Origin: Thuidium tamariscinum
Lineage: Eukaryota; Streptophyta; Bryopsida; Hypnales; Thuidiaceae
DNA length: 64,000 nt
Assembly: GCA_947034885.2 (NCBI GenBank)
Contig: OX344750.2
Location: 4,340,001 to 4,404,000, forward strand
Direction of reading: 5' to 3'
Shown here piece by piece: positions 4,206 through 59,088 of the stretch. Below the pieces are notes generated by a model. The model saw only the letters and a program-made list of their open reading frames with translations, searched no databases and had not been told where the DNA came from. The position numbers were made by a program, and so were the translations under genes. Position 1 is the first letter of the stretch, and each line of letters begins with the position of its first letter.

Positions 4206-4271
4206 AACTCTATATAACCTATATTTAACTAATTATGGACAATTGCATGAATTATGGACAAATTCATAGTC
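4206..4271 (+). repeat. Left terminal inverted repeat of the 13-kb element
   Basis: Contains CTAATTATGGACAA at 4229-4242, then an 8-bp spacer, a second ATTATGGACAA at 4251-4261 and ATTCATAGTC at 4262-4271. Without the 19-bp duplication/insertion it matches the right end with one mismatch over the 32-nt core. The AT-rich terminal repeat passes directly into the GC-rich interior at CGCAAGCC. Confidence 0.8.
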
Positions 4272-5063
4272 GCAAGCCACCTGAGAACGTGGAAAAGACG
4301 CTTCAAATGATAGAAAAGTGTCGGCAGCCCACCCACACCTTGTTGAGAACGAGCAGTTGCATAAAAAAGGAGAGGATTGTTGACTGTTGGAGCGTTTTTA
4401 GTGGAGTATCAGAAGCGGTGCCTATAACCGTGCACCCATCCCGTGGCCAATGACATGTATAGGCTGGCAGCCGATAAGAGAGCAAAGTAAAGTGCGCCAG
4501 AAGAGTAAAACAGGACAACGAGCATGATATGTAGAGAATTTCCTGCACCGTTTGTGCACTGAAGATACAACAGTTGCAACATGGTCCCCATAGGAGATTC
4601 AGATAAATATGTAAAGAAAGTACATAAACTCGCAGCAAGTGCTAAATGCAAGGATCTAACAACCGAAGAGGACAAAGTATCGCCTGAGAGAGTAACGTCC
4701 TCCGGCTAGCCCTGTCGGCAGCCAGCCGACAAATACGTAAAATGTGAACTGCCTAGTCATAAGACTTCTAGTGCCATCCTATGAAATATAAAGGCCCACC
4801 GTAAAATAACATAAAGTCCCACCGAAGAAGATAAGAATGCACATCCTGAAATGAGTAAACATTGAGGACCTGCACGTAATGATCTTAAAGTGAACATTCT
4901 GCTGACGAACCGCGCGATCGTGATGCAGCCAATCCCGTCGTATCGGTTGGCAGCCGACATCTGCATCGAGAAGACGAATCCGTGTTGCAATGTGTTGTTG
5001 ACATAACTGGAGAGCACAAATGGTGTATCGGCTGGCAGCCGATAAGTTCGAGTCGATGTATCT
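4272..5063. other. Left non-coding interior of the element
   Basis: About 790 nt between the left TIR and the end of the transposase-like gene. It holds four palindromes (4458, 4713, 4941, 5026), the last beginning 19 nt beyond the stop codon of the minus-strand gene. No convincing coding frame: the overlapping short frames on both strands have no domain. Clustered subterminal repeats are a known feature of transposase-binding ends in several plant DNA transposon families, so this is a candidate cis-acting end. Confidence 0.5.
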
Positions 5064-7947
5064 TTAATCGTCTCCGGCATCGTCTGCATCTCTGTCGAGA
5101 GTTGCACCCGCGGCCTCTAGATTCGCAATAGCAGCAGCAACGGATGCCTCCGGGATGACATGAGACGTGGGAGGTCCTTTCTTTGCATGCGAGGGCATTC
5201 TGTGCGAGTACAAGACAATGTTGACATGTACCATCTGCGGAAGACAGAGTTCCTTGTGCCATCTTCGAGTCCAGCACTCCCTCGCGATAAGCGCTTTGGA
5301 CTCCCTTTTTGCTTTCATGGGAGTCCACCACTCGATTTTAAAGATTCCATAGGTTGGCCCCGGAGTCATGTCTACACATTCGAGTACCCGTCCCAGCCAG
5401 CCAGGCAGGTGGTTGTTGTGACATGGTCGACAGAGCACAAAGTCTCCGAGCAGAACATCCCTGAATGGATTGAATCTCAATCTTGGCCTGTCCTTGGCAG
5501 GTCCGTAGTATGGAGTGGGGTCCCCTTCGTCCTCCGGAGTGGTGTCCATTGAATAATTTTCGAGCGCCCCCTTGTCTATCGATGTGGATGCGTGATCCCT
5601 TGTCCAGTCCGAGAGCGGCCATAATCCTTCTTGAAGCAATGCAGGAGTTTGTGGCAGCGGTGAATTGATCTCTGCTTGAATTCTTTCCCAGTAAGCCACA
5701 CAACCTGTCATTTCTTGTGCGTATCGTCTGTCTCTGGCCATTCCCGATTTCCAGAATTCAATGAATTTCGCGATTCCGTTTTTGATGAATGTCTGTTTCT
5801 CATTGCACTCTGTGGCCCTTGCGACTTCCTTTTCCGCGTTTCTCTTTCTTGGATTAATGTCTACATTCCCCCAGAGGGCCTTGAAAGGCACAGGTCGAGG
5901 TTCCCCTTGAGGAATGTTGGGTTTCCCATTTTCATCTGCTGTCCACATTTTGACGGGTGGTCCAGGAGGGAGCCATGAAGAATCCGTGGCCCTGACCTTG
6001 TACCTCATGATCGGCCATCCCCGATCGACCCCATCCTCTACGACGTAGAACTTGAATAGGTGCTTATCTCCTAGCCCTATGATTTTGTTGACCCCCTCAT
6101 GATGGAATCCTCTGAAGTATGATTTGAAGTCCGCCACCTCTTGCACGAACTCCGGAATGAAGGCTACCGTTTTCTGTGAGTCTATGAACGCCTTCATGAG
6201 ATCCGCGAGAACGTAAGTGTTCTTCCTCTTGATGAGTTTTGAGAGGTAACTGAAGTGCGCGTCAATGTTCTCGTGCGTATGTCCGACAATGAGGAATCTG
6301 ACTGAGACTTCCTTGAATATGCGCCTGGCAATGAGCAGTGAGCAGAAAGCCATGAGGAATCTGTTCTTGTTGTCCTTGGCCGAATTGTCGAGTTGCAAGA
6401 AGAGTTTTTTAGGCAGTGGGACCTGAGGTCGCCCTAGCGTTGGTGCGTCTGTGACCTTGTCCGATGACTGCGGGATTGACAAGCTGCATCTGGATTTTCC
6501 ATGCAGTAGAGCCTCGAAGAAGCTGTTTAGCGGTGGAGTGGAGAAGAGTATCTTTGATTCCCTTACAGGAGGTAGTTCTAGGGCCCTGAGTATCCTGCAG
6601 ATGGATGAAATAGTGAAATTTGAATCCCCCGGCCAGAGCGATGTTGAGTAATGCGCGTATGCTCCATCTCCATGTGTGAGCATTCCAATACAAGAGATTG
6701 GAATTTGTCCTAGTCCTGCGGTGGCCTTTGTGATACGCTGCATCCTGGGAATGGCAGTCTTTGTGGTGTCCATTTTGTCATGAATAATGCAGAGGAACTC
6801 TGATGGATTTTGCACTGACTGCGCGGTCCATCCGCTATATACATTTCTACAAGCGCGCTGGTAATTGAGATGTCTCTCTCTGTCGTCGACGAGTGCCTGC
6901 CACTCATCACAACCTCTGGGATACTTTGCAATGAACTCTACGAGGAAGTCACACTCTGTGCATTTTGAGAAATTGCTCCCTACTGCCTTGACCTCTACGT
7001 TTTTGAAATGAGCATTTCGAAGTCGGTTGATAGCAGACTGGGATACCGGCTCCATATTGCATATTCCATTAACCTGAAGAACATGACTACATGGATGAGT
7101 ATCCATGTAAGACGATAGAGTTGTATCGGCTGGCAGCCGACAGAACTGCGAGTGCCGGCCTACAGAAAAGAAAGATCTATGACTGCTCGATTCTAAGTCT
7201 AGCCTTGAATGTATCGGCTGGCAGCCGACAGAGTGACATTTATACTGTAGACGAGGAGGCAGATGTTGGACTTACATAATTGACTTGTTCGCGTATGTGA
7301 TCCCAATTCATTGCAGAGGGTAGGACCTTGAGATTATCGACGCGTTTATTTCCAACCATTCTAAACTCATTCGGCATCTTGTCTGCATTCTCATCGATGA
7401 TCGTTTTGAGTGTCGCTTGAGCTTGTATTGTTTGTGGCCGTGGCCGTCGAGCCCCCACATTTCCATGCGACCCGTTGACGGATCCTCCGGCGGCCGCAGC
7501 CTTGTAAACGTGATAGGCCGACCTGGATACCCTGTGAATGACATACCATGCGTTCTCGCAGATGTCTCTATTAGCAAGAGTGATGAATTTTTTTCCTGGA
7601 ATAATCCCTACATGAAGTTGACTCTATACCGCATACGCTACCTCCCTCCTACTCTCGAATGTGCAAGCAAAGAACTTTCGTCGTATAGACCTGGTGTCCT
7701 CCCAGGGAAAGGTCTGGCAGCATCTGAGCTTACAGCACTTGTGTGAGCTGACCTTACGTACCTCTGCCTCCAAGGTCTTGATTTGCAGCCTGGAGTGGCT
7801 CTCGAGATCCTTGGGAATGACCCTTCTGCGCACAGAGCGGTATGGATTCCTCGGTACCCCCTGCATTCCGTCATCGTCTGCCTCCTTCAACAGAGCAGCT
7901 TGTGAGCAAAGCGTGACAATTTCTGATAGTAGCCTTCCCCCCTCCAA
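5064..7947 (-). pseudogene. DUF7869-like putative RNase H-fold transposase, interrupted by an in-frame TAG
   Basis: The main exon (7073-5064, stop TAA) follows an intron 7275-7074 (donor GTAAGT, acceptor CTTCAG, phase 0, two palindromes inside). The upstream exon runs from about 7947 to 7276 and contains a paired-cysteine KCCKLRCC segment. Numbering from the ATG at 7106: a C-x2-C pair at 49/52; LCIIHDKMD (D110, D113); IGMLTHG at 140-146; FLQLDN with D240 then NKNR; FLIVGHTHENID with E279 and D282; a barrel-like segment with GDFVLCRP near the C-terminus. The order resembles an uncharacterised transposon-associated family I recall as DUF7869. The three acidic positions could be a DDE/D-type RNase H triad, which is my inference. 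A TAG at 7626-7624 splits a region that reads as continuous family sequence (AYAV, stop, SQLHVG, then the CENAWYVIHRVS segment), so this copy is probably defective. Confidence 0.7.
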
Positions 7948-9209
7948 TCTTGTGTGTGTGTGAGCTTCCAGCGCATGGTTGTCATTTGCAGTTTGTGACT
8001 GTCCGATACGAACATGACCCCAACATCCGTGTCGCCCAAGACGCCATCATCGCAAGCCTCATCTGGTAGGCAAACTTGTATCATGGCTCTTCCCAGTACC
8101 GAGAAGTCGTCATTGAGAAGTTGACAGTATTGATTTCTCCAAAGCGGTCTATCTGGGATTGGAAGTCCATCTTGCACTCCAACTGGATCGGCATTGTCAC
8201 CCCTCTGAGTACCATCTCTGAACGCATCCGAATGATCCATGCTGTCAGCAACACTTGCATCGGACGCGGCAGTGCCAGAGGTGCTGTAACCATGAACATT
8301 GCGCTAGTCGTGTGCAGACCCGCGACTGTCCTCGCATGACGAATAGAGTCTATCATCTCGCTCGTCTTCGTCTGATGCAGTAGGAAGTACCCGCTGTGGT
8401 CCCGGATCACCGAGTTCTATCTGCACATTGTTCGAACTTCCACCACTCTCACAGTTCCCATCGATCTGAGGCTGCATGAAATTGGTCGCAGGTGCTCCTG
8501 TCGGCTGGCAGCCAACAACGTTGGCCAAGGGGACAGATGACTGGATTGGTCTGACCTTGTAACCACTCCAGAGTATTTTGTATCCTACACAACGTTTGAG
8601 TGAGATGAAATCAGGAATCTCGCAATAGGCAGTGTGATTCTTGAAGTCATCGACGACGTGTAGGAGCTTCACAACAAAGAAGAAGCTGTGTGGAATGCGG
8701 AAGCCTCCCCAGTACCCCTTCGGGGAGCACTCTACAATTGTCCCTACACCAACATAGAACAGAGTGTCGCCCAGAGTCTGGAGAAGTGAGACATCCATAT
8801 TGACAATGAGTGAGAGAAATTGATGTATGGGTTTTTCATCAGTGAGCACTTGTGTCGGCTGCCGGCCGACAGCAGCAACAAAAGACCATTCCGCGTCTGC
8901 GTGCGGATAAACGTTGCCTGCCTCCCACACGATTGAGCTTCCCGGGCAGTGTCTGAGGAAAACCATGTCTCCCTCCGGAAACGGAAGAGGCATATCGAGG
9001 TTGTTTGGAACATCTAGGACATGAACGCGCACGAGGTATGGATCACGGCTGACCACCCTTTCTACGACCGCCCTTCCAGCGTAGTATAATCCTTCCAATG
9101 TGAGAGCCACAACAACTCCCTTTTGCAGTTTCAGTCTTCCGGACCCGCCATTTCTTGTGAACGCCTCAATAGGACTGGCACCCGAGGTCCATTCATCAGA
9201 GCCACTCAT
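7887..9209 (-). pseudogene. Amino-terminal module of the transposase-like gene or a separate ORF, broken by TAG
   Basis: Start chosen at the ATG at 9209 (MSGSDEW), because the longer frame from 9308 would translate the palindrome at 9276. The frame runs to TAG at 8306-8304, then stays open in the same frame to TGA at 7889-7887. An LPFPEGDMVFL...GSSIVW stretch loosely recalls a DUF8039-type module of plant transposon proteins (low confidence). A palindrome at 8499-8517 lies in a possible 84-nt phase-0 intron (8555-8472: AAG then GTCAGA; ATGCAG then CCTCAG); another at 8853-8871 lies in open frame. The junction with the next exon needs a frame change that I could not resolve: either an unseen intron near 7900-8000 or a frameshift. 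A single minus-strand gene from 9209 to 5064 is plausible. Confidence 0.5.
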
Positions 9210-10385
9210 GATTCGAAATCGGGGTGAGAACCCAGACTGTGGGAATTTCTGCTTCCGGAAAACCCGTGATGACCTTATCGGCTGGCAGCCGATACGTTTG
9301 TGTATCAAATGCTTGACGACCTAGCAGATACGGAAATCGGTATCGGCTGGCAGCCGATACCACTGTCCGTACGGTCTAGCACAAGGGCAAGACCGTACAA
9401 CTGGAACTCTGGGGATCACGCACGAAGCTAGATTTTTCAAATCCTATGATCTACGCACTGTCCACAGATGCTCGGACCAGGCTGAATTAAGAAATGGAAG
9501 CACAAACGCAACCAAATAGGAAATCAAGAACCTATGACAGGCAACTAATTCTCGAAAATGCAATTGAAATCCTACTGCACTTCAAATCTGTCTCCCAGCA
9601 ATTGAAATCCTACTGCATTTCCTACGTAAGCTTGAACGCCAAATAACATCTGTCCCTCAGCGCTTCCTGAACAAGAGGACTACTGAATACCTAAGCTCTG
9701 CACTGGGCTGAGGTCTACTAAATTCCCTCTCTAACGTTGCATCCTTCCTAAACAACAAGCCACTGCAATTCCCTCACGGTTCTTGGACGCTCTGAGTGTG
9801 TGTGGGGGGGAAATGAAAATGGAAAATGAAGTCCTCCAAGATCAAATCCTAGGTGAGCATGCTTGTGACTGAACTTGGCGCCTGAAATTTGAATCTGAAA
9901 GAGGATGAAGTTGTGGTGATTGCAAGAGTGACAAGTCCGTGCATCAAGAGATCGTGGGTGGAAACGTACGCATCTGAGCAATGAGTGTTCGTCACCTGCA
10001 TGTACCTTGCTGGATGTGGAGTACACGGTAGCGGATGGAATCCGGGCGATGGATGAAATCCTTGGATGAAAAGTGGCGATGGATGAAATCCTAGGATGAA
10101 CGGACTCGGTTTGTCATGATTGCGCCCCTCGGCTGGCAACCGAGGGTATACCCCCCAGGCCACTTTCATTTTTTCTCATTTCCCATTTGCGCTCCTGCTC
10201 TCACTCTCCCTCTCTCCCTCCCTCTCCCTCTTGCCTTCCAACTTGCAGCTGACACCCAAACGCAGAGCAGAGGAGCAACCGACAGGAGTATCTGGGCAGC
10301 CGACAAAGAAGGAGTGCGCGGCCGGCGTTTTCTTCAGCAGCCGACAAGTCCTTCTGAGCAGCCGACAAGCGTCAGTCCTTCGGCG
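9210..10385. promoter_or_regulatory. Divergent intergenic region between the two gene blocks
   Basis: About 1.2 kb separating the minus-strand transposase-like gene from the plus-strand ParB-like gene, so it should contain both promoters. It holds palindromes at 9276, 9341 and 10127. A 19-bp phrase CAATTGAAATCCTACTGCA occurs twice (about 9560 and 9600), GGATGAAATCC repeats at 10036-10100, and a CT-rich tract at 10198-10231 is typical of plant core promoters or leaders. No TATA box is convincing. Confidence 0.5.
10244..10367 (+). promoter_or_regulatory. Cluster of palindrome half-sites upstream of the ParB-like gene
   Basis: Half-sites of the form GCAGCCGACA recur without a left arm: TGCAGCTGACA at 10244, AGCAACCGACA at 10274, GGCAGCCGACA at 10295, AGCAGCCGACA at 10336 and at 10357. 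The last four are spaced 21, 41 and 21 bp, close to two, four and two helical turns, so they would face the same side of the helix. The start codon is at 10386. An operator for autoregulation is an inference; they could also be eroded palindromes or part of an unrecognised 5' exon. Confidence 0.45.
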
Positions 10386-13300
10386 ATGGCATCCTCCAGT
10401 TTGGCAACAGAGAGGTACTTTTTCATTACATGTATCGGCTGCCAGTCGATACATTATCATTTGTCAATTATTTTGAGTGCAGCCATTGAGAGTCTGGGGC
10501 ACCTGTGGGTTGCTGTATCGGCTGGCAGCCGACAGACATGGGAGCACTCAGGTAACTCCTGAGCTCATGCGATGTCGGCTGGCAGCCGATATAAATCTGG
10601 GACAGTGGTCTTACGATGATCTGTAAATGACTTGGGATGGTAGGGTTTAGGGACTGTGGTTGTATCGGCTGCCAGCCGATACACTAGATGCAGAAAGTGG
10701 AGTTACATAGTGACAACTTACTGAGAATTGAAATGTTTTGTAGGAAACCAACTCTCTTGGCCCGAATGCTGGGTGAGCAAATCCCGAACTCTGGGATTTT
10801 GGGTGACGGGTTTCCACCACGAGCAACATGGCGAGGGATCGAGGCCATCCAGGAATGGGGCCTGTATTGGAGGCAGGCACCCGACAAAAAAGTGGACATC
10901 GCATGCTCCTTCAAGTTGAAGGGGAACATGACCCCTGGCAAGGGAAGTGTGTTGTCCGTCAGGGCTGCTGGCGAGTGCGTGCATGTCATGATATGCTTGA
11001 TGCCAATAACAAGCACGGTCGGAGTCCCTGACTACTTCGCCGTGGAGTTGCCGGTGAACAAGTGCACGGAGGAGGTCTGTGGACAGAAGTCCATGTCCAT
11101 GGGCATGACATTTGGCGGCAACACACCGTCGTCTGCAGAGGAGCTCATCCAGGGGTGGGAGTGCCTGAAGCAGGAGCGTGATGAGCACAATGCGTTCGTC
11201 GCTCGGGAGCTGGAGAAGGGGAAGAAGAAGGTCCCGGCGAAGAGGAAGCTGGTGGCGGCGATAGTGGCTGAGTTCGCTGAAGCCGATCTTGAGGAGCCAG
11301 CGTCCCCGACCAAACCAAAGCGGAGAGGAAAGGGAAAGGATGACCCGTCGAAGCCGCTCAAGCTCACATTGGACGAAGCACTCCGGCGTGGAAATCACCT
11401 CACCACGAAGACCAAGGAGAACGAGGTGAACGCCATTTACCAGGCGCTGGAGACGGGCCTCCTGCACGCGTTTCCATACAAGAAGCAGCGTCTTCCGGGG
11501 GTCATTCACTCGGACAAGCTCCACATTGCACCGGACGAGCTCAAGTACCGGAAGATTGTAAAGGACCGGCTGGGACAGGTAATTGGATGATCACTTCCAT
11601 CTGTCGTTCATCAAAGTCATTTCATATCTTCTATCGGCTGGCAGCCGACATGTCTAACTAGTCATTAATGTTTTGGCCTTCTGTCATTTCAGGTGAAGAC
11701 CATGTATAAGGGATATGGGTCCATCAGGAAGAAGCCAGAAATTCATGGGGTTCCACTGAAGCGGGCTCCAACGCCCAAGGACAAAGGGCTGGACGTAGTG
11801 ATGGACAAGTGTCCCGGGCAGGACGACGTCACTGTTGTCAACGGCGTCTCAATGCCGTGGTGGAAGGCGCTGGATGTCCACTGGTACATCATTGGAGGGC
11901 AACACACGGTGACGGCCTGCCGAGAACTGGCCGAGCAGTATCCCGACGGATCTGAAGCCAAAACGGACCTCCTGGAGTTCGAGGTGATTCCGGTGTTCAG
12001 CAGAGACCCGGACACACTCGTCAGAGTCTCCAATGCCCTCAATCTCAACATCGCTGAGAAGGTGGCAAAGGAGAACTTCAGATCCTGCGCAGAGATGGGA
12101 AGAGCGGCGTGGGTGAAGGCGGGATGCCCAAAGCCGCATCGTGGAGGAGGCAAGCCGACAGCAGCATTCGAGGTACTACCCTCGCATCCTTTCTTTCTAT
12201 TCGTATTTGCTCATTACGTTATGTATCGGCGGCCAGTCGATACCTTTGTGCTCTGTTCTAAGCATTGTGGTTGAACTCTCAGGCTGCGAAGATGAAGGTG
12301 ATGGCGCACTTCGTGGAGGAGAAGGTGTCCTCCAAGTTGCCACTCATCTTCATCAAGGAGGGCACCTGGGAGCTGTGGACGGAGGTGTTCGATGCGTGGG
12401 AGAACGGCGAACTCATTGGCGATGATGGAACGGTGCCCAATCTCCTGGTCAACCGGAAGCCGCTCACGCACATCACCAAGACGGATCTCACGCCAACGTT
12501 GGGGCCTCGTGATTCAGATCTGTGCGAGTTGGGACGGGAGATTGTGGCACTTCGCGTGAGCATCAAAAACACCGCCAAGGCCAAGTCCTCAGGGAAGATC
12601 ACTCTCTTCGATTGGTGCAAGGACAAGAAGCTCGACAGGATTGTCATGAACGAGATCATGTGGACCAGGAAGAAGTACCCTCTTCCTTGCAAGGATGCAG
12701 GCTGGATCCCATATACGGATGAGGTTTGGAAGGAGCTGGCTGAAAAGGAGGGGTACTCAGCGGCCGTAGTCCGGAATGTCTGGAAGGACATGATGAAGTT
12801 CACGGACGCAAGCAACTGGTTGAAGGGCCGAGTCAAACCCATGAATCCAACCACAGACAAGTCCACGGATGGCAAGGCGCCGGGGGTCTTCTTCACGACT
12901 TTGAAGAGCTACGTCAAAGTCCCATTGCCTCCCACGGTAGGCAAGTCAAGCGAACTGCAATACGAATGCCATGTCGGGGACAGTATTGCAGAGGTGGTGG
13001 ACTTCGTTCGCCAATCGAAGGGGACGATGAAGTTGGAACCCGAGGACAAGAAATTCCTCGTCGTTTTCGGGTATTCAGAAATGGGGGAAGCTCTAGCGGT
13101 GAACAGGAACGAGCTGCTCAATCTATCGTTGGCAGCTGAAATTTCCGACGGGGAAGCTGATGAAGACAGAGACCCTTACATCCCCCTGCCAATGCTCCTC
13201 ATCGGGAACTTGCGGTTCAGGGATTCAGTCGCCTTGGCCGCGAACTCATCCTCGACCGACTGGTACTACCATGCGGTGTACTACCAGCCATCTCCCCGGG

Positions 13301-14224
13301 GAGGCTTTCTGAAGGCAGAGATTGAGTCCAGGCCTCTGGTCACTCTCTCCTTGACCTTCCCGAAGCCCGAGGACAGGCTCAATGTTTTCCCGGTCTTCAA
13401 GCGCTTCACTGGGGTCCACAAGGCGCTCGACTTGTTCAATTTCGACATCGAGGGGGAGGTCGACTGGAATGGCGGGATGTGCGGGGTTGGCCATGGGCTC
13501 CTCGAGAAACTCATGCTACCCACCCTCAAGGCCAAGGATGCCACAGTCATCAACATCTGGGGTGGCGGTAACATCACGGAAATCGCTCTAGTACGTTTTC
13601 TTATCCCATCCTCACACTTGCATTGTTCTCAGGAAGTCACTTTCTGTTGGCTGGTAGCCGATACAATTGATGGCTGACTTGCACTCCATGGCTTTGCAGA
13701 GGAATGGACGGGCTGTCATGGAGTTCGTTCGGGAGGAGGAGGGATTGGAGAAGGCCAAGGAACGTATCAGGGGAATGAACCTCCTCTCCTCGAATGCCCT
13801 GGGACCTTCTCAGGTGACGCTAGCGGTGACAGACCACGAGGGGCAACCGGCACGGGCGCAATCTCCTCAGCAACCATGGCCGTTGTCCACCCTCGTTCTA
13901 CCCCGGGCTCCGGGGGTCGCAGCTCAAACTCAGCGGCCGCAGGGTCAGTCTCAGGAGCAACCACCACTTGTGACGGTTGATACTGACTCAGACTCAGAGA
14001 GCTCCCTGGAAGCACCACTCATTCGAAGGGAACGGCAACCACGTCCTTTGTCTCCGAGGCCTTCGCTCAATCCACCCCCGACTCAAGATCTGGACCACCC
14101 CATGCTGCTCCCACACAGAAACTCCTCGCATGCAATGGTCGTGGATCTACGCGCCGAGCCACCGTCGGAGGAAATAAGCAGGCTACCTCTGCCTCAGGTG
14201 GTCGTCGCGGCGACGGAGCCTTAG
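10386..14224 (+). CDS. ParB-like / beta-class DNA-methyltransferase-like fusion protein, five exons, ~1058 aa
   Basis: Exons 10386-10414, 10744-11578, 11693-12172, 12283-13590 and 13700-14224, all GT-AG, joined at phase 2 then phase 0 three times; every intron contains a palindrome. Residues about 190-245 are basic (KPKRRGKGKD). Residues 352-362 (WYIIGGQHTVT) match ParB/Srx box II (I-x-G-x-H-R type), followed by a box III-like NALNLNIAEKVAKE near 402. At 862-884 GHGLLEKLMLPTL then VINIWGGGNITEIAL, continuing across the last intron as RNGRAVMEFVREEEGLEKAKERI, matches the C-terminal motif X/I block of permuted beta-class N6-adenine/N4-cytosine methyltransferases (normally V-x-D-x-F-x-G-x-G-T-T). 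The usual D/N-P-P-Y/W motif is not evident, so catalysis is doubtful and DNA binding likelier. ParB-methyltransferase fusions are known in phages and bacteria. The tail (after about 930) is Pro/Gln/Ser-rich and its end at TAG 14222 is uncertain. Confidence 0.7.
10415..10743 (+). other. Intron 1 of the ParB-like gene with four palindromes
   Basis: Donor AGAG|GTACTT, acceptor TTTTGTAG|GAAACC. The split codon AG|G restores arginine, supporting a 29-nt first exon starting at ATG 10386. It contains palindromes at 10433, 10516, 10573 and 10663, the densest cluster in the element. Confidence 0.6.
11579..11692 (+). other. Intron 2 of the ParB-like gene, centred on one palindrome
   Basis: Donor ACAG|GTAATT, acceptor CATTTCAG|GTGAAG, phase 0, 114 nt. 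The palindrome at 11632-11650 starts 53 nt after the donor and ends 42 nt before the exon. Without removal the frame ends at a TGA shortly after the donor. Confidence 0.75.
12173..12282 (+). other. Intron 3 of the ParB-like gene, centred on one palindrome
   Basis: Donor CGAG|GTACTA, acceptor CTCTCAG|GCTGCG, phase 0, 110 nt. The palindrome variant TATCGGCGGCCAGTCGATA at 12224-12242 starts 51 nt after the donor and ends 40 nt before the exon. Confidence 0.75.
13591..13699 (+). other. Intron 4 of the ParB-like gene, centred on one palindrome
   Basis: Donor CTCTA|GTACGT, acceptor CTTTGCAG|AGGAAT, phase 0, 109 nt. The palindrome TGTTGGCTGGTAGCCGATA at 13645-13663 starts 54 nt after the donor and ends 36 nt before the exon. 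Removing it joins the two halves of the methyltransferase-like motif block, which strongly supports the splice. Confidence 0.8.
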
Positions 14225-14299
14225 GTGGGAGTCACTGCACTTGGGCAACTGGCGACTATGGCCGACATTCGTGTCGGCGGCCAGCCGACACCCATGGAC

Positions 14300-15631
14300 A
14301 CTTCTCCGCCGGAACCAAGACGGGGAAGAAGCAAGGGGGGCACCGCTAGAAAAGGAGTCGGAGTCGGCGGACTCGCACTGCTCAACTCGGGTCTTCTTCA
14401 AGCGGAAAAGATCAAACGAGAAGGACGCTGGCGCGGCGGCGCGGACGCAGGACTTCCCCAACGAAGAGATGTCTCCCGTCCGATCTCAGAAGAGGACACA
14501 GATTGGAGGTTCGTAGGCAGTAGACATGCTTCGCGATGTTTGTGGAGTATCATACATAGTTCGTTCATAAGTAGCCGACAAGTGGCTCAGACTCATGCGT
14601 AGACATCTCAATAGGAGCCGTTTTGGGGGCAGACTAGACTTCCTCTCGACTATGTCGGCTGCCAACCAATACAGTGCAAAAATGTTTTGTCGGCTGCCAG
14701 CCGATATAGTGCACAAATGTTTTGTCATCTAACTAAGTTCATACCATCTCATGTTCTATGTATTTCGTGTGGCAATGCAGATGATGACTATCAAAAGTCT
14801 GACAATTCCTCCGACACCCTATCTGAAGCTGGGAATGACAATGTCCAGCAACAAACACAAGACAGAGCACGGACTCCCGACAGTGCTGGCCCTGCTCAGG
14901 TAGCGACTCCGAAGTTGTTTCTTTTCCTTGAAGTTCAGGGAACTCTACTTTTCTATGAGCCACTCATTGTCAAAGGGAAGAGTATGACTCAGAGGTCGAC
15001 AGTCAGAGAGAGACCAGGTCTCCGGGAGTTCATCTTCTTCTGTAAGGGTCAAGACATTGTGATTGTCTACTAGTCAATCTTAACCAAGAACACTCTCGAG
15101 CAGCGCCTCCATAGCCTTAGATGGAAGGCGCCGGAGATCGGAGAGGATTACCTGGCCTTTGGACAGTAGTTCTGCGACGAGAGTACTTATCGGGACCCTC
15201 AGAATGCATCGCGACCAATTTTTCTGAAGCGTCTCGCAAGAATTCTCGGAGCATCCTCTTTGTACGATATGGGCGCCACGATCAACAACTCATTGATCGT
15301 GGACTCGGAGCCATATAGGAACGTCTTGAATCTGCCGTTTAATGCGATTCATCCGCCCCCCGTCACCATGTACTCGGAGAAATCACTCAAGGCAGGGAAA
15401 CTGCCATTTCTCCAGGCGACACTGATCCCGTTCATTGAACGGCTCTTGTCTTCGGGACTCACGGTCGCACAGTTCTGTGAGAAGAACTCGCCCATTGGGC
15501 TTGCACGATGTATGCCGGGAACCCCGATGCATAATCAGTACGTGAATGTGACACCGCACTATCAGAAGGGATTCGAGGTGCCATATTCACAGGAGGAGCT
15601 AAAGGCCTTGGGAATGGCATACCCCACTTGA
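14300..15631 (+). pseudogene. FCP1-like HAD-superfamily domain 1, two in-frame TAG codons, catalytic residues lost
   Basis: A 5' exon of uncertain start (somewhere before 14400) encodes a Ser/Glu- and Lys/Arg-rich stretch (FFKRKRSNEK) and ends at 14508 with donor GTTCGT. An intron 14509-14780 carries palindromes at 14653 and 14688, and the second exon runs 14781-15631 (TGA), joined in phase 1. The second exon gives KLFLFLEVQGTLLFY, then RERPGLREFIFF, then YDMGATINNSLIVDSEPYRNV and NLPFNAIHPP, the successive landmarks of FCP1/SCP-type CTD-phosphatase-like HAD domains. The D-x-D-x-T nucleophile motif reads E-V-Q-G-T and the D-D pair reads D-S. TAG codons at 15071-15073 and 15167-15169 interrupt an otherwise continuous family-like frame. 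A catalytically dead or dead-gene relic is the best reading. Confidence 0.6.
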
Positions 15632-16082
15632 CCGGATGGAGGAGGCGTAGTGTATCGGCTGCCAGCCGACACACTCTTGTGTACATTGTACATACTCTCT
15701 GTAGATACAGCACGGATAGACCAAATCTTCTAGGGACATTTTTTTCTTCTGTATGGATTAAACATTTTTTTGTAATCAAGACATTATAGTCAGAGTTCTT
15801 CTAAAGCGTGCGCATGGCTCACTCTCAAAGCATTCCAATGTTTCCTTTGAGAGTTGCATCATTAGGTCTTGGACTTGGGAATCGACTGATTGCAATAATG
15901 TAGGGGCAGGCACTCACTCATCTCTACTGTCTATCTAACACATGTCTCTCAACAATTAATGCTTCCTGTTGTATTGGGTCAGGCTCTAGTATCGGCTGCC
16001 TGCCGATACCTAATGCATGCTCTTCTTTCATCGGATGCTTATGTTGTGGAGTCATGTGTCCACTAACTTATCTTCTGTTCAG
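15632..16082 (+). other. Spacer between the two FCP1-like modules
   Basis: Holds palindromes at 15653 (21 nt after the preceding stop) and 15990, and must include the 5' part of the second module or its intron. ATG at 15814 opens a short frame (MAHSQSIPMF) up to a possible GT donor, but its phase 1 does not fit the phase-0 acceptor at 16082, so no exon is called. Confidence 0.35.
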
Positions 16083-16733
16083 GAGTCCAACGTGGGCCAT
16101 ACACAGTCCTTCAAGAAATGTGTGGTTCTAGGAGTCACGGGACTACTTTGTTATCTCGACCCGAATATCAAGGTGGACAAGGCAGACCCACACAGAAACG
16201 TCATTAAAAGGCCTGGGCTAGTTCATATGTTCAGCACATTGTTTCAAAAGTTTCACGTAGGAATTTGGTCAAAGTTGCCAATACTTCAGCTTAGGCCTCT
16301 GCTTGCGCACTTGCTTCCAAAACATATCAGAGACAATATAGCATTCGTTTATGGCAGAGAGTATTGTGTAGATAGCCTCAAGTTCCCGTGGTGCTACAAA
16401 ATGCTCTCAATACTACATACTAAGAGACCATCCAGGATTACATGCTTCACGGACCAAGTGCTCATCGTCGATGTGTGCCCGCTTGCGCTCAGGAGGACGC
16501 CGGATACGGCGTGCTATATTCCGAGACCATTCAAGGGAGATCTCAATTTCCCAAACACTAGTAGAGTTATTCCAAACATTTCAAATGATATTATTCCATT
16601 CATTTATCCAATGCACCAATATCAATCAGTCTCAGAATACATCAAAGGCGCACAGAGACCGGGACAACTGCACTATGAGGTTGCACAATCTATCAAGTAT
16701 GGAAAGCCGAATTGGCAGGGGATATTCTGGTGA
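16083..16733 (+). CDS. FCP1-like HAD-superfamily domain 2, degenerate, partial gene model
   Basis: The exon begins after acceptor CTGTTCAG at 16081-16082 and ends at TGA 16731-16733. Landmarks: KKCVVLGVTGLLCYL (nucleophile motif, both aspartates absent: G-V-T), KRPGLVHMFSTLFQKFHVGIWSKLP (motif II region), then a QVLIVDVCPLALRR segment (usual V-D-D-C-P, here V-D-V-C-P) followed by PRPFKGD. This is the same fold family as the module just upstream but only distantly alike, so it is not a recent tandem copy. The 5' exon is not identified; it should lie in 15672-15990 or further upstream. The palindrome at 15990 is 74 nt before the exon, the same distance as in the previous gene, and another (16748) lies 14 nt after the stop. 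This frame has no internal stop. Confidence 0.55.
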   Translation, partial: ESNVGHTQSFKKCVVLGVTGLLCYLDPNIKVDKADPHRNVIKRPGLVHMFSTLFQKFHVGIWSKLPILQLRPLLAHLLPKHIRDNIAFVYGREYCVDSLKFPWCYKMLSILHTKRPSRITCFTDQVLIVDVCPLALRRTPDTACYIPRPFKGDLNFPNTSRVIPNISNDIIPFIYPMHQYQSVSEYIKGAQRPGQLHYEVAQSIKYGKPNWQGIFW

Positions 16734-17294
16734 TTCAGCAAACATTGTGTCGGCCGCCAGCCGATACAACGGCAGTGGAATCGGGGAGGCTACAAGACCC
16801 TTTTTCAGAAATTGGAACAACTCATTTCAGAGCCAGTCCTATCGAGTCCATTGCCTCTTCACTACAAGACCTGCTCTCTGGAGTTTTCGGGGGGGGATAT
16901 CGGCTGCCTGCTGATACGCGCGATTTTATTACTTGGGTCGGATGGACTAGGGTTTAGGGTTTAAGGTCGACAATTTGTCGCGCTTCATCTTACAAATGAA
17001 TGCCGTAGCACTTTACGCACTTAGGACACTTTCAGAGGTCTAGGTGCTCTAGTGTGTGATGTTAGGAATCGGCTGCCAGTATCAAGCGCCAGCCGATACT
17101 TTGTCACAAATTAGGACACAACACACGTGTTTATTTAACAATAAAAGTTCATAAACTATTACCTCTCAACTCTTTTATGGGCCAGGTGTTGTGATACTTT
17201 GGTTTCTTTAGTGCTTGCAGCCATTTTGGTTCATTGCTTGTGGCACACAAAACTATGCATTCGACTATATCGGCTGACGGCCGATTTATTTCTG
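16734..17294. other. Right non-coding interior of the element
   Basis: About 560 nt with four palindromes (16748, 16898, 17067 interrupted, 17268), mirroring the four in the left non-coding end. Short frames in this stretch overlap the palindromes and have no family match that I can see. This is a candidate cis-acting right end. Confidence 0.5.
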
Positions 17295-17342
17295 GACTAT
17301 GGATTTGTCCATAATTAGTTAAATATTAGTTATATGGAAGTT
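17295..17342 (-). repeat. Right terminal inverted repeat of the 13-kb element
   Basis: Reads GACTATGGATTTGTCCATAA then TTAGTTAAATAT on the plus strand, the inverted copy of the left end. Outward of this, AGTTATATGGAAGTT is a weaker inverted match to AACTCTATATAACC on the left. The last palindrome (17268-17286) lies 8 bp inside. Confidence 0.8.
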
Positions 17343-40325: not shown

Positions 40326-41201
40326 CTAAAGCTCTAAAATGGTGCCCTAGCTAAAATGTACATTGTTTGTATACTACTGAAGGTTATGAAAAAGAAACAT
40401 GTACAAACATTGTACATTTAAGATAAGGCACCATTTTAATGCCTGCTCCATTTTAGGACTTCTTACCTTATCCAATTAGTCGATCGAGGCAAACTCACCC
40501 CTCGCTCATCTTCCCCAAGGCATTCCAAGGGTATATTTTGAAAACAAGCCCCCTATTCCATGCTTGAAAAACCGTTATCATTTTCTTTTTTCAATGAAAA
40601 ATGAAAGTGTTTAGTACTTAATCCTCAAAACTATGTGAAATTTTTTTAGCTAAGGTTGGGGCATCAATAATTAGCCATGCCAAGAACCCAACCTGTATGG
40701 GTGCAATCAAGGCCATAACAAATTTTCTACTAGAGCTTGAATTACATTATTTTTTGGTCATTTTTGAGGTTGAGACTAATAAGGTTATGACACACATGTT
40801 TCAATTATTTAGTGTAGGAAGTAGGGAGTAGAAAGTATTAGGTGGAAGAGTAATTCTTGAATGATCGGAATTAGAAGACTTTAAAATACTAGATATGGAT
40901 CAAGAATACTTTTTAGTTCCCAAAATTCACATCAATTTCAATTTCGGAAATCAAAATTTGAAAATTTGAAAATTTGAAAATCTCTATACATCCTATTTTT
41001 CTACATGGGAAAAATTTTCACCACCTCATACTCTATACAATTTGTTCTAAAATTGCTTAAATGGTTGGTTATTGGTGCCTCAACTTTCTATGAAGGCCTT
41101 TGATTTCAAATGTAAATTCAAAATTTGCAAATCTTACAATCCATGAAAACTAAAAATTTCAACATTTTCTCTTTAGAATGAGCAAAGGGTCAGTTTACCT
41201 T

Positions 41202-41300
41202 CACTACAAGAGAATGGGGTCTTTTAAGTAGTGTCTTAGACATCATGTCTTTAAGTAATGTCTTTTAATGCGTCTTTTAAGTAAAATTCTACTAAAAAGA
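41202..41300 (+). mobile_element. Half of a CACTA-type MITE (left arm only)
   Basis: CACTACAAGAGAATGGGGTC followed by TTTTAAGTAGTGTC and on to TTTTAAGTAAAATTCTACT; nearly identical to the left arm of the complete element at 51555-51726, then stops. The right arm is missing. Confidence 0.7.
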
Positions 41301-51554: not shown

Positions 51555-51726
51555 CACTACAAGAGAATGGGGTCTTTTAAGTAGTGTCCTAGACATCATG
51601 TCTTTTAAGTAATGTCTTTTAATGCGTCTTTTAAGTAAAATTTTACTTAAAAGACGCTTTAAAAGACATTACTTAAAAGACATGACGTCTAGGAAACTAC
51701 TTAAAAGACCCCATTCTCTTGTAGTG
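51555..51726. mobile_element. Complete CACTA-type MITE, 172 bp
   Basis: A near-perfect foldback starting CACTACAAGAGAATGGGGTC and ending with its inverse, GACCCCATTCTCTTGTAGTG. It is flanked by AAC on both sides (51552-51554 and 51727-51729), the 3-bp duplication expected of CACTA elements. The truncated copy at 41202 belongs to the same family. No autonomous partner is visible in the window. Confidence 0.9.
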
Positions 51727-57306: not shown

Positions 57307-59088
57307 ATGACTCTCCAAATTCTAGCCAAGAGGGCGTGTCCTCCGGACGACAGCCCTGTGTTGAAGCGATGGAAGCCGGAGCTCAAGTGGCCCAACGAGG
57401 GCGTCACGCTCGCGGCGCCCCAAGCGCTGCAAGCCGAACTCGACGTGAAGTTGGAAGACCAGGAGCCGACGTCAGTTCTAGACCTGCAGACCAGCCCCGG
57501 GCGCTCCTGCAGCTCTTCCTCGGGAGGCTCCCTGTCGTCCCAGCCCAGTCTGTCCGGCGACGAGACTAGCAACTCGCATGTCGTGGCGACCTCGACGGAC
57601 GAGAGCGTGCACAACGATCACGACATTGCGAGCTGGATGGAATGCATGGAAGGTGGCCTCGCGCTCAGTGACTTCGCCAAAGGCGACGACGAGGACGACG
57701 ACTGCGTGCGTCCCAATTCCAATGAGCATCCGACCTCCAGTGAGGACGTGACGAAATTAGAAGACGGGATTGAGCATCTCGTGGACGCAGACATTGACTT
57801 CGGATTTGAGCTCGGCGCGTTCTCCATGTCGGACATGATGTTGGCTGACCCGGGACTCTGTTTAATGGATCAGTTCCCGGAGGGTTTTCACGACGCGCAC
57901 CGGCTGCTGGAGCTCGATGAATCTCTTTCCTCGATGATGAAGTCGCAGGGATTCGAGACTGTAGAATCTTCTAGTGAGGTGATTACTGTTGCGACTGAAG
58001 TGCCGTTAGACAGTGGCTTGCAGCTGGTGCATCTGCTCCTCGCCTGCGCGGAAGCCATCGACGAGTCAGACTTCGAAACCGCGCGTCCCATGCTGGAGCG
58101 CTTGAAGACTATCTCGAACCCATACGGAGACCCCATGCAACGAATCGCGCTCTATTTCGCGGACGCGCTCAGCGATCGCCTGGAGCCACAAGCACTGCCG
58201 CCTTCTCCTTCGAACGTCGACAAGGAGCTCGCGTTCCAATCATTCTACGAGGTCCTACCTTTTTCCAAGTTCACGTACTTGACTGCCAATCAAGCCATTT
58301 TCGAGGCCGTCGGGCACCACAACAAGATCCACGTGGTGGATCTAGACATCCAGCAGGGGTTACAATGGCCCTCCTTTCTCCAATCTCTCGCCCTACGACC
58401 AGGCGGGTCACCCCATTTCCACCTCACGGCAGTGGGGACGAACGCGCCTGCGTTGGAGCTCACCCAACGTCGTCTAACCGAATTCGCGCACGGGCTCGAC
58501 GTCCCCTTCGAGTTCACCATCGTGCTTGCGCCTCTTCAAACACTCGCCATACAAGACCTCCACCTCGCGACGGACGCAGCGCTCGCGGTGAACTGCTCAC
58601 ACGTCCTGCACACGCTCACCACCGCGGCTACCGAGAATCTCCTCACGTCACTCCGGAGCTTGAATCCCGCAGTCGTCACGCTTCTGGAAGTCGAGGCGAA
58701 TCATAACGGGGGCAACTTGTTGTCTAGATTCGTGGAGGCGCTGCACTACTACTGCGCGCTCTTCGACGCACTGGAAGGCTCCCTGGCACGTGACTGTCCC
58801 GACAGGTTCCTGATTGAGAATACTACTTGTTTTGCTGAGATTCGAGGCATTGTTGCGCAGGAGGATGGTCATGCTTTGAAAGCCGAAACGTGGGAGAAGG
58901 TGCTGACGAAATGTGGGTTTCGAAGCAAGCCTTTGAGTTCGTATTCCGTGCAGCAAGCGCAGCTGCTGCTGGCGTATTTTGCGAGTGGGGATCATGCGAC
59001 CCCGTACAAGCTTTCGGAAGAGTGCGGGGCGCTCATCATGGGGTGGCAGGAGACTCCCGTCATGGCCGTGTCGTCGTGGAGCTGCTAA
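57307..59088 (+). CDS. GRAS-family transcription regulator, intronless, 593 aa
   Basis: A single exon from ATG 57307 to TAA 59086-59088. Residues 1-235 are acidic and Ser-rich, as is usual for the variable GRAS N-terminus. The conserved part follows in order: leucine heptad region I (LQLVHLLLACAEAIDESDFE, 238-257, on to about 292); the VHIID motif as IHVVDLDIQQGLQW (341-354); leucine heptad region II about 375-440; the PFYRE region with RFVEALHYYCALFDALE (474-490); and the SAW region to the end, with WEKVLTKCGF (529-538) and GALIMGWQETPVMAVSSWSC. GRAS proteins are plant nuclear regulators of development and hormone or symbiosis signalling. The subfamily is unclear: it looks closest to the SCR/SCL/LAS type, with no DELLA motif. 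The usual terminal W is followed by SC. Codon use is strongly GC-biased compared with the flanks. It looks intact. Confidence 0.93.
   Translation: MTLQILAKRACPPDDSPVLKRWKPELKWPNEGVTLAAPQALQAELDVKLEDQEPTSVLDLQTSPGRSCSSSSGGSLSSQPSLSGDETSNSHVVATSTDESVHNDHDIASWMECMEGGLALSDFAKGDDEDDDCVRPNSNEHPTSSEDVTKLEDGIEHLVDADIDFGFELGAFSMSDMMLADPGLCLMDQFPEGFHDAHRLLELDESLSSMMKSQGFETVESSSEVITVATEVPLDSGLQLVHLLLACAEAIDESDFETARPMLERLKTISNPYGDPMQRIALYFADALSDRLEPQALPPSPSNVDKELAFQSFYEVLPFSKFTYLTANQAIFEAVGHHNKIHVVDLDIQQGLQWPSFLQSLALRPGGSPHFHLTAVGTNAPALELTQRRLTEFAHGLDVPFEFTIVLAPLQTLAIQDLHLATDAALAVNCSHVLHTLTTAATENLLTSLRSLNPAVVTLLEVEANHNGGNLLSRFVEALHYYCALFDALEGSLARDCPDRFLIENTTCFAEIRGIVAQEDGHALKAETWEKVLTKCGFRSKPLSSYSVQQAQLLLAYFASGDHATPYKLSEECGALIMGWQETPVMAVSSWSC

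Follow-up and report, generated by a model that had tools for sequence, protein, structure and literature searches.

What purpose is served when a plant transposon carries more than two dozen dispersed copies of one short palindrome, and which protein would read them? The question arises from a 64,000-nucleotide stretch of the moss Thuidium tamariscinum (contig OX344750.2, positions 4,340,001 to 4,404,000; hereafter the window), in which a DNA transposon of about 13 kb carries the palindrome, a DUF7869 transposase gene and a divergent gene whose product has a ParB-like GQH box. The host genome (363 Mb, 19 contigs) holds three transposon families, each with its own dispersed palindrome (TRTCGGCTGNCAGCCGAYA, YATCSGGAGATCTCCSGATR and TTTAGGTCGANTCGACCTAAA in families 1, 2 and 3), the window element belonging to family 1. 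This private, palindromic, non-coding and family-co-varying pattern fits recognition by a dimeric element protein. We give a probability of about one half to the reading that the family-specific palindrome is read by a DNA-binding protein of the element itself, in all likelihood the ParB-box gene product, which counters host silencing or coordinates the element's own genes.

The window word, TRTCGGCTGNCAGCCGAYA, occurs at 25 sites with at most two mismatches, all within the one element. Scanned across the 64-kb window, it gave 11 sites with no mismatch, 9 with one, 5 with two, none with three, 3 with four and 4 with five; all 32 lie within 4209-17338, and the rest of the window has no site even at up to five mismatches. 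Forty dinucleotide shuffles of the element yielded no site at 0-3 mismatches and means of only 0.175 and 0.95 at four and five. The original prediction had described 27 irregularly spaced palindromes confined to the element between 4458 and 17286. Its count equals our 25 sites plus two weaker ones (10127, five mismatches; 17080, four mismatches) and omits five further weak sites (4319, 7021, 8860, 10868 and 12142), its limits match the start of the first site and the end of the last exactly, and both confinement and irregular spacing are borne out. Genome-wide, TRTCGGCTGNCAGCCGAYA is found at 972 places at up to two mismatches, compared with 2 for a reversed control pattern. Among the matches listed there are 50 exact sites, all on one contig (C1) and in five clusters, and every cluster contains both a transposase match and a ParB-like match; in these five clusters, then, we did not see the abundance of palindromes without ParB-like genes that had been named beforehand as telling against the idea.

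The element itself is an integrated, multi-copy DNA transposon. Its terminal inverted repeats of about 44 bp are identical at 38 of 44 positions (E 2e-7, blastn of left against right flank), and the full left end recurs in 27 of 30 family-1 loci with 27 different 12-bp flanks, the remaining three loci either not reaching the end or lacking it; inverted ends together with many copies in different flanks are features of a cut-and-paste DNA transposon. ATAT on each outer side of the window copy may represent a 4-bp target duplication (one copy, by eye). The transposase scores 134.6 bits against DUF7869 (PF25273; curated cut-off 26) and has named relatives in Ceratodon, Physcomitrium and Riccia. 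Pfam gives the function of this family as unknown; here a member lies between inverted ends, and its structure model appears to resemble DDE enzymes. One in-frame stop within the aligned upstream frame suggests that the window copy is not intact. The C-terminal barrel of the model (residues 548-646 of the frame at 5064-7106, minus strand) is weakly like MazF, BAH and chromo folds and could be a histone-mark reader. A search of the host genome with the transposase returned at least 67 matches (65 of 753 candidates scored), among them 19 more copies of nearly full length at 92-97% identity and a second family, family 2, at 48-52%. Outside the host genome, the transposase found no relatives in genome contigs, viral contigs or plasmids, five genome-contig stretches having matched a pattern and failed confirmation; pattern matches in viral contigs came to 2 and 5 stretches, about chance level by our own estimate.

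Divergent from the transposase gene lies the ParB-like gene, whose box conforms to a motif, YI..GQH[TS]..A, common to five sequences. The claim that the element encodes a ParB-like protein stands as far as this box is concerned, but the protein has no match to the ParB family in Pfam, NCBIfam, PHROGs or PDB at E up to 10. An AlphaFold model built on four sequences reached a pLDDT of 36. Pfam scans of the element frames tested gave no match to a ParA-like ATPase, and the ParB-like exons gave none to the VANC domains DUF1985 and DUF287.

The sites avoid exons. Using exon limits that were in part set by us, 23 of the 25 sites fall outside the assigned exons, which take up 8,274 of 13,116 bp (63%; P 1.4e-8); the figure is again 23 of 25 when only homology-supported exons are considered (6,909 bp, 53%; P 3e-6). 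A single site sits in each of the three ParB-like introns, which are 109-114 bp long, and two sit in the transposase intron of 150 bp. The same arrangement can be glimpsed in relatives, where intron palindromes were read from protein translations: the read-through introns of P0066 (67% identical over the aligned part) spell the palindrome three times, and those of P0001 (72% identical) twice, one instance coming from a pattern match and the other from inspection by eye. P0067 (65% identical) has it once by eye, with a mismatch. On our reading, these introns correspond to those of the window. Physcomitrium and Ceratodon proteins contain VGGPPI, IGGPPT and VGGPPT (by pattern) and VGCPPT (by a looser pattern), each of which is the expected translation of a palindrome with a GG-N-CC core or one mismatch off it, suggesting that these relatives may carry a shifted word.

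The original prediction had proposed looking for co-variation of protein and site. We found it in three families, each pairing a transposase and a GQH-box gene with a different palindrome, the family-3 gene being known from one locus. The transposase of family 2 is about 47% identical to that of family 1. The family-2 word, TCSGGAGATCTCCSGA, lies within YATCSGGAGATCTCCSGATR; its outer ATCGG is also that of the family-1 word, and its core is different; three stretches hold 18, 20 and 32 sites. The stretch with 32 sites (C8:15828500-15853499, 25 kb; 0 sites in 30 shuffles) has the gene order of the window, with a minus-strand transposase, a GQHT-box gene in divergent orientation (30% identity and E 5e-13 for exon 2, 23% and E 4e-8 for exon 3; both E-values against this stretch) and NIF-like frames. 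The family-2 NIF/FCP phosphatase-like frame (L051:497-1324, Pfam E 3.6e-14) is a passenger gene in common with the window element. By our reading, the sites in this stretch occupy the intron of the transposase gene, the promoter region between the two divergent genes and the spaces between ParB-like exons, and 1 of the 32 falls within the exon limits used. Ten of the palindromes follow one another at intervals of 47-48 bp (4620-5048 of the joined stretch L046 + L047), an array resembling the tandem growth of VANC targets. A family-2 element (L038 + L039, 7098-8202 of the joined stretch) has an AT-rich region in which units of about 176 bp are repeated in tandem, the AT-rich part having been measured in L040.

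Family 3, with a transposase about 34% identical to that of family 1, emerged when the genome was searched with P0039, a distant relative, which gave at least 55 more transposase rows (55 of 918 candidates scored). Its word is TTTAGGTCGA-N-TCGACCTAAA, found genome-wide at 413 places at up to one mismatch compared with 0 for the control. Of the 18 sites on a 19-kb stretch, 1 falls inside an exon as we delimited it. About 12 kb upstream of the transposase, in divergent orientation, lies a gene with the box YIVNGQHSVSA (exon 2 27% identical by tblastn, E 3e-4 against 9.5 kb), and two palindromes stand at its probable intron. Among the places listed, three other clusters of the family-3 word with a transposase (C3:6213642, C3:47226995 and C6:26831964) repeat the pair of sites 581 bp apart that lies 12-16 kb from the transposase, and two more have it without a listed transposase; these clusters probably contain the ParB-like gene as well. 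When a second family-3 copy (82% identical over a 3-kb open reading frame alignment) is compared outside that frame, only five short blastn pieces align, and four of them are palindromes (three sites in one copy, two in the other).

Among the loci compared, the three words are mutually exclusive. With thresholds of 3, 2 and 4 mismatches for the words of families 1, 2 and 3, respectively, the 30 family-1 loci hold 198/0/0 sites, the family-2 stretches E, A and B hold 0/32/0, 0/18/0 and 0/20/0 (sum 0/70/0), and the family-3 stretch and its second copy hold 0/0/18 and 0/0/8. Two further family-2 stretches, counted for words 1 and 2, have 0 and 10 and 0 and 11 sites; shuffles of stretches E, L054 and L055 have none. 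The two genes mostly occur together. From the 67 rows, dropping shorter fragments and merging two rows left 37 copies of the transposase, belonging to families 1 and 2 and to their decayed kin, and ParB-like matches were taken as one row per locus out of 105. In 32 of the 37, a ParB-like match lies upstream at a distance of up to 40 kb and on the opposite strand; this divergent match is present in all 24 family-1 copies taken, at 85% identity or above. A 63-78% copy (L042-L043) retains nine decayed window-word sites, seven of them clustered (up to three mismatches), a 60% copy (L044-L045) three (up to three mismatches), and a 53% copy (L048) three, with no word of its own seen by eye; a decayed ParB-like locus (L053) has no repeated palindrome. 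Near 10304 of the joined stretch L044 + L045 there are also palindromes with the core CTA-N-TAG, once perfect (by eye), which may be a further word or a decayed or shifted window word.

The best-known case of transposons that counter silencing in a sequence-specific way is that of the VANDAL elements of Arabidopsis. We infer the binding of the sites, the identity of the reader protein and the anti-silencing outcome, and envision the following steps. Families of DUF7869 transposons would mark their own non-coding DNA with many palindrome copies (18-32 per stretch counted whole); the ParB-box protein would bind these as a dimer, recognizing the copies of its own family only; binding would hold those copies open at their introns, promoters and ends; and the open state would counter host silencing or coordinate the element's genes, as VANC does for VANDAL. 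Published work on VANC (PMC5735166) describes proteins that bind short motifs in the non-coding DNA of introns, intergenic stretches and element ends, motifs that differ between related families and are sometimes arranged in tandem arrays, an effect of motif density, and proteins with the domains DUF1985 and DUF287. The moss families resemble that system in pairing an element-encoded protein family with many short sites in their own non-coding parts, different between related families, and the motif here is indeed family-specific and dense in non-coding parts. They differ in having a DUF7869 transposase, palindromes of 19-21 bp and a ParB-box protein without a VANC-domain match, and their anti-silencing role would be by analogy. 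The pattern and this precedent together make us prefer a role in anti-silencing or in marking a domain, with a ParB-like reader, and keep the transposase as a serious rival.

That rival holds that the transposase, through its putatively DNA-binding, cysteine-rich N-terminal part, reads the sites for transposition or activation in the manner of CACTA/Spm TnpA or MuDR MURA, and that the ParB-like protein does something else. We consider this possible, though less probable than a ParB-like reader. A transposase is present in all three families, tracks the change of site no less closely than the ParB-like protein, and could itself be the reader. The original prediction is supported in part, namely in the confined sites, the GQH-box protein and the co-variation that it had proposed to look for. 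Many sites also adjoin the transposase gene or lie in the divergent promoter, and a published account (PMC10398659) reports demethylation of their own elements by TnpA and MURA, transposon proteins that, like the one envisaged here, act on the element encoding them. Against a transposase reader, the sites are not limited to the ends; they also occur throughout the introns and across the distal half of the element, where the ParB-like gene lies. The sites of TnpA and MURA are subterminal or in the element ends, whereas the palindromes here are spread over the whole non-coding part. Moreover, between families the ParB-like protein diverges more than the transposase (30% and 23% identity vs 47%; 27% vs 34%), and the site changes too. 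Binding by a protein of the moss itself, either a transcription factor or a component of chromatin, with the sites acting as captured promoters, enhancers or insulators, would agree with their position in promoters and introns; we regard it as improbable, as three families have three palindromes, each private among the loci compared, and the 50 exact window-word sites among the matches listed are all in element clusters.

A partition system in the bacterial sense, aiding segregation or pairing of copies, for instance as an extrachromosomal form, is unlikely, although the GQH-box protein and the multiple short palindromes recall ParB-parS. The protein has no detectable match to the ParB family, Pfam scans of the frames tested revealed no ParA-like family, sites occupy all non-coding parts, and the element is an integrated, multi-copy eukaryotic transposon with inverted ends, which makes partition, as raised in the original prediction, the least credible of the readings. 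It is scarcely easier to see the palindromes as functionless small mobile or mutational products spreading inside the element. The ten-site array and the weak conservation of sites among family-1 copies would accord with such spreading, but the site is kept in matching introns of relatives 65-72% identical, family-3 sites outlast the surrounding non-coding sequence, and each family has a different word.

Several observations weigh against a ParB-like anti-silencing reader. The ParB assignment is based on a short motif; 5 of the 37 transposase copies are without a ParB-like match within 40 kb; and the family-3 ParB-like gene was read in one locus, with weak similarity (E 3e-4 for exon 2 and 0.005 for exon 3, each against 9.5 kb). 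A search with P0068, which does not detect the family-3 ParB-like gene at the cut-off used, finds a match near 1 of 55 family-3 transposases, attributed to a neighbouring family-2 element. Across 22 family-1 copies, seven covered sites diverge from the majority by 0.028, compared with 0.041 for matched windows (P 0.04), a slight conservation that is less than that of the main transposase exon (0.021), and CpG decay is about equal at sites and elsewhere (0.071 vs 0.079). These family-1 data are weak and do not suggest long-lasting hypomethylation of the sites, which opposes the strongest form of the reading.

The features of the element are collected in Table 1. Elsewhere in the window, a GRAS-domain gene at 57307-59085 (plus strand; Pfam E 3.9e-105) shows the host to be a plant, an AT-rich inverted repeat at 1639-2954 (arms of about 490 bp, 84% identical) is probably another transposon or a hairpin relic, and a near-perfect palindrome of 172 bp at 51555-51726 (96.5% self-complementary) has partial copies at 41194-41300.

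Table 1. Features of the family-1 element, in window coordinates; mismatches are to TRTCGGCTGNCAGCCGAYA.
Feature	Position	Strand	Basis or remark
Left terminal inverted repeat	4206..4248	+	end common to copies starts AACCTATATTTAACTAATTATGGACA at ~4216
Whole DNA transposon (family 1), ~13.1 kb	4216..17331		inverted ends; GC step (GC-richer than surroundings); shared left end among copies
Palindrome	4458..4476		1 mismatch
Palindrome	4713..4731		1 mismatch
Palindrome	4941..4959		1 mismatch
Palindrome	5026..5044		exact
Transposase main exon, DUF7869 (PF25273)	5064..7106	-	Pfam; putative DDE-like fold (model)
Palindrome, transposase intron	7124..7142		exact
Palindrome, transposase intron	7212..7230		exact
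Upstream transposase exons, N-terminal part, approximate limits	7241..8933	-	tblastn with moss proteins P0006, P0008, P0010
Palindrome in transposase frame, reads VGCQPT	8499..8517		1 mismatch; moss relatives VGCPPT / IGGPPT nearby (by eye)
Palindrome in transposase frame, reads VGRQPT	8853..8871		1 mismatch; Physcomitrium P0010 VGGPPI aligned; Ceratodon VGCPPT (by eye)
Palindrome, divergent promoter region	9276..9294		exact
Palindrome, divergent promoter region	9341..9359		exact
Weak palindrome	10127..10145		5 mismatches
Palindrome	10433..10451		1 mismatch
Palindrome	10516..10534		exact
Palindrome	10573..10591		exact
Palindrome, immediately 5' of ParB-like gene	10663..10681		exact
ParB-like gene exon 1, start codon uncertain	10733..11578	+	homology to P0066, P0068 from ~10826 on; splice calls by us
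Palindrome, ParB-like intron 1	11632..11650		exact
ParB-like gene exon 2, box YIIGGQHTVTA	11693..12172	+	GQHT box; splice calls
Palindrome, ParB-like intron 2	12224..12242		2 mismatches
ParB-like gene exon 3	12283..13590	+	65-66% identical to P0067 over covered part
Palindrome, ParB-like intron 3	13645..13663		2 mismatches
ParB-like gene probable exon 4	13700..14224	+	open frame and splice sites only
Palindrome	14272..14290		1 mismatch
Palindrome	14653..14671		2 mismatches
Palindrome	14688..14706		exact
Possible degraded first NIF-like copy, in-frame stops	14783..15628	+	by eye; without Pfam match
Palindrome	15653..15671		exact
Palindrome	15990..16008		1 mismatch
NIF/FCP phosphatase-like gene (PF03031)	16014..16730	+	Pfam E 1.9e-7
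Palindrome	16748..16766		1 mismatch
Palindrome	16898..16916		2 mismatches
Weak palindrome	17080..17098		4 mismatches
Palindrome	17268..17286		2 mismatches
Right terminal inverted repeat	17299..17342	-	blastn of left vs right flank

Among the titles and abstract openings listed from the open-licence PMC literature on ParB in bryophytes or eukaryotic transposons, subterminal repeats, moss DNA transposons, Spm TnpA and palindromic anti-silencing motifs, we found no account of this system, and for DUF7869 there was no paper. A bolder and rather doubtful version of the ParB-like reader can be entertained: plant transposons might have acquired a ParB-like loader, the ParB-box protein of each family loading at its own palindromes, spreading along the element and building a family-private chromatin domain, a eukaryotic parS code that would re-evolve in each family, in parallel with VANC and unrelated to it. 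Should the anti-silencing reading prove true, mosses would hold a second, unrelated anti-silencing system, a single genome of which offers three or more natural pairs of protein and site, implying that evolution has produced private codes for self-recognition more than once. Such a system would also supply ready-made protein-palindrome pairs with a directly readable specificity code, and would provide a context for the DUF7869 family and its NIF-phosphatase passenger.

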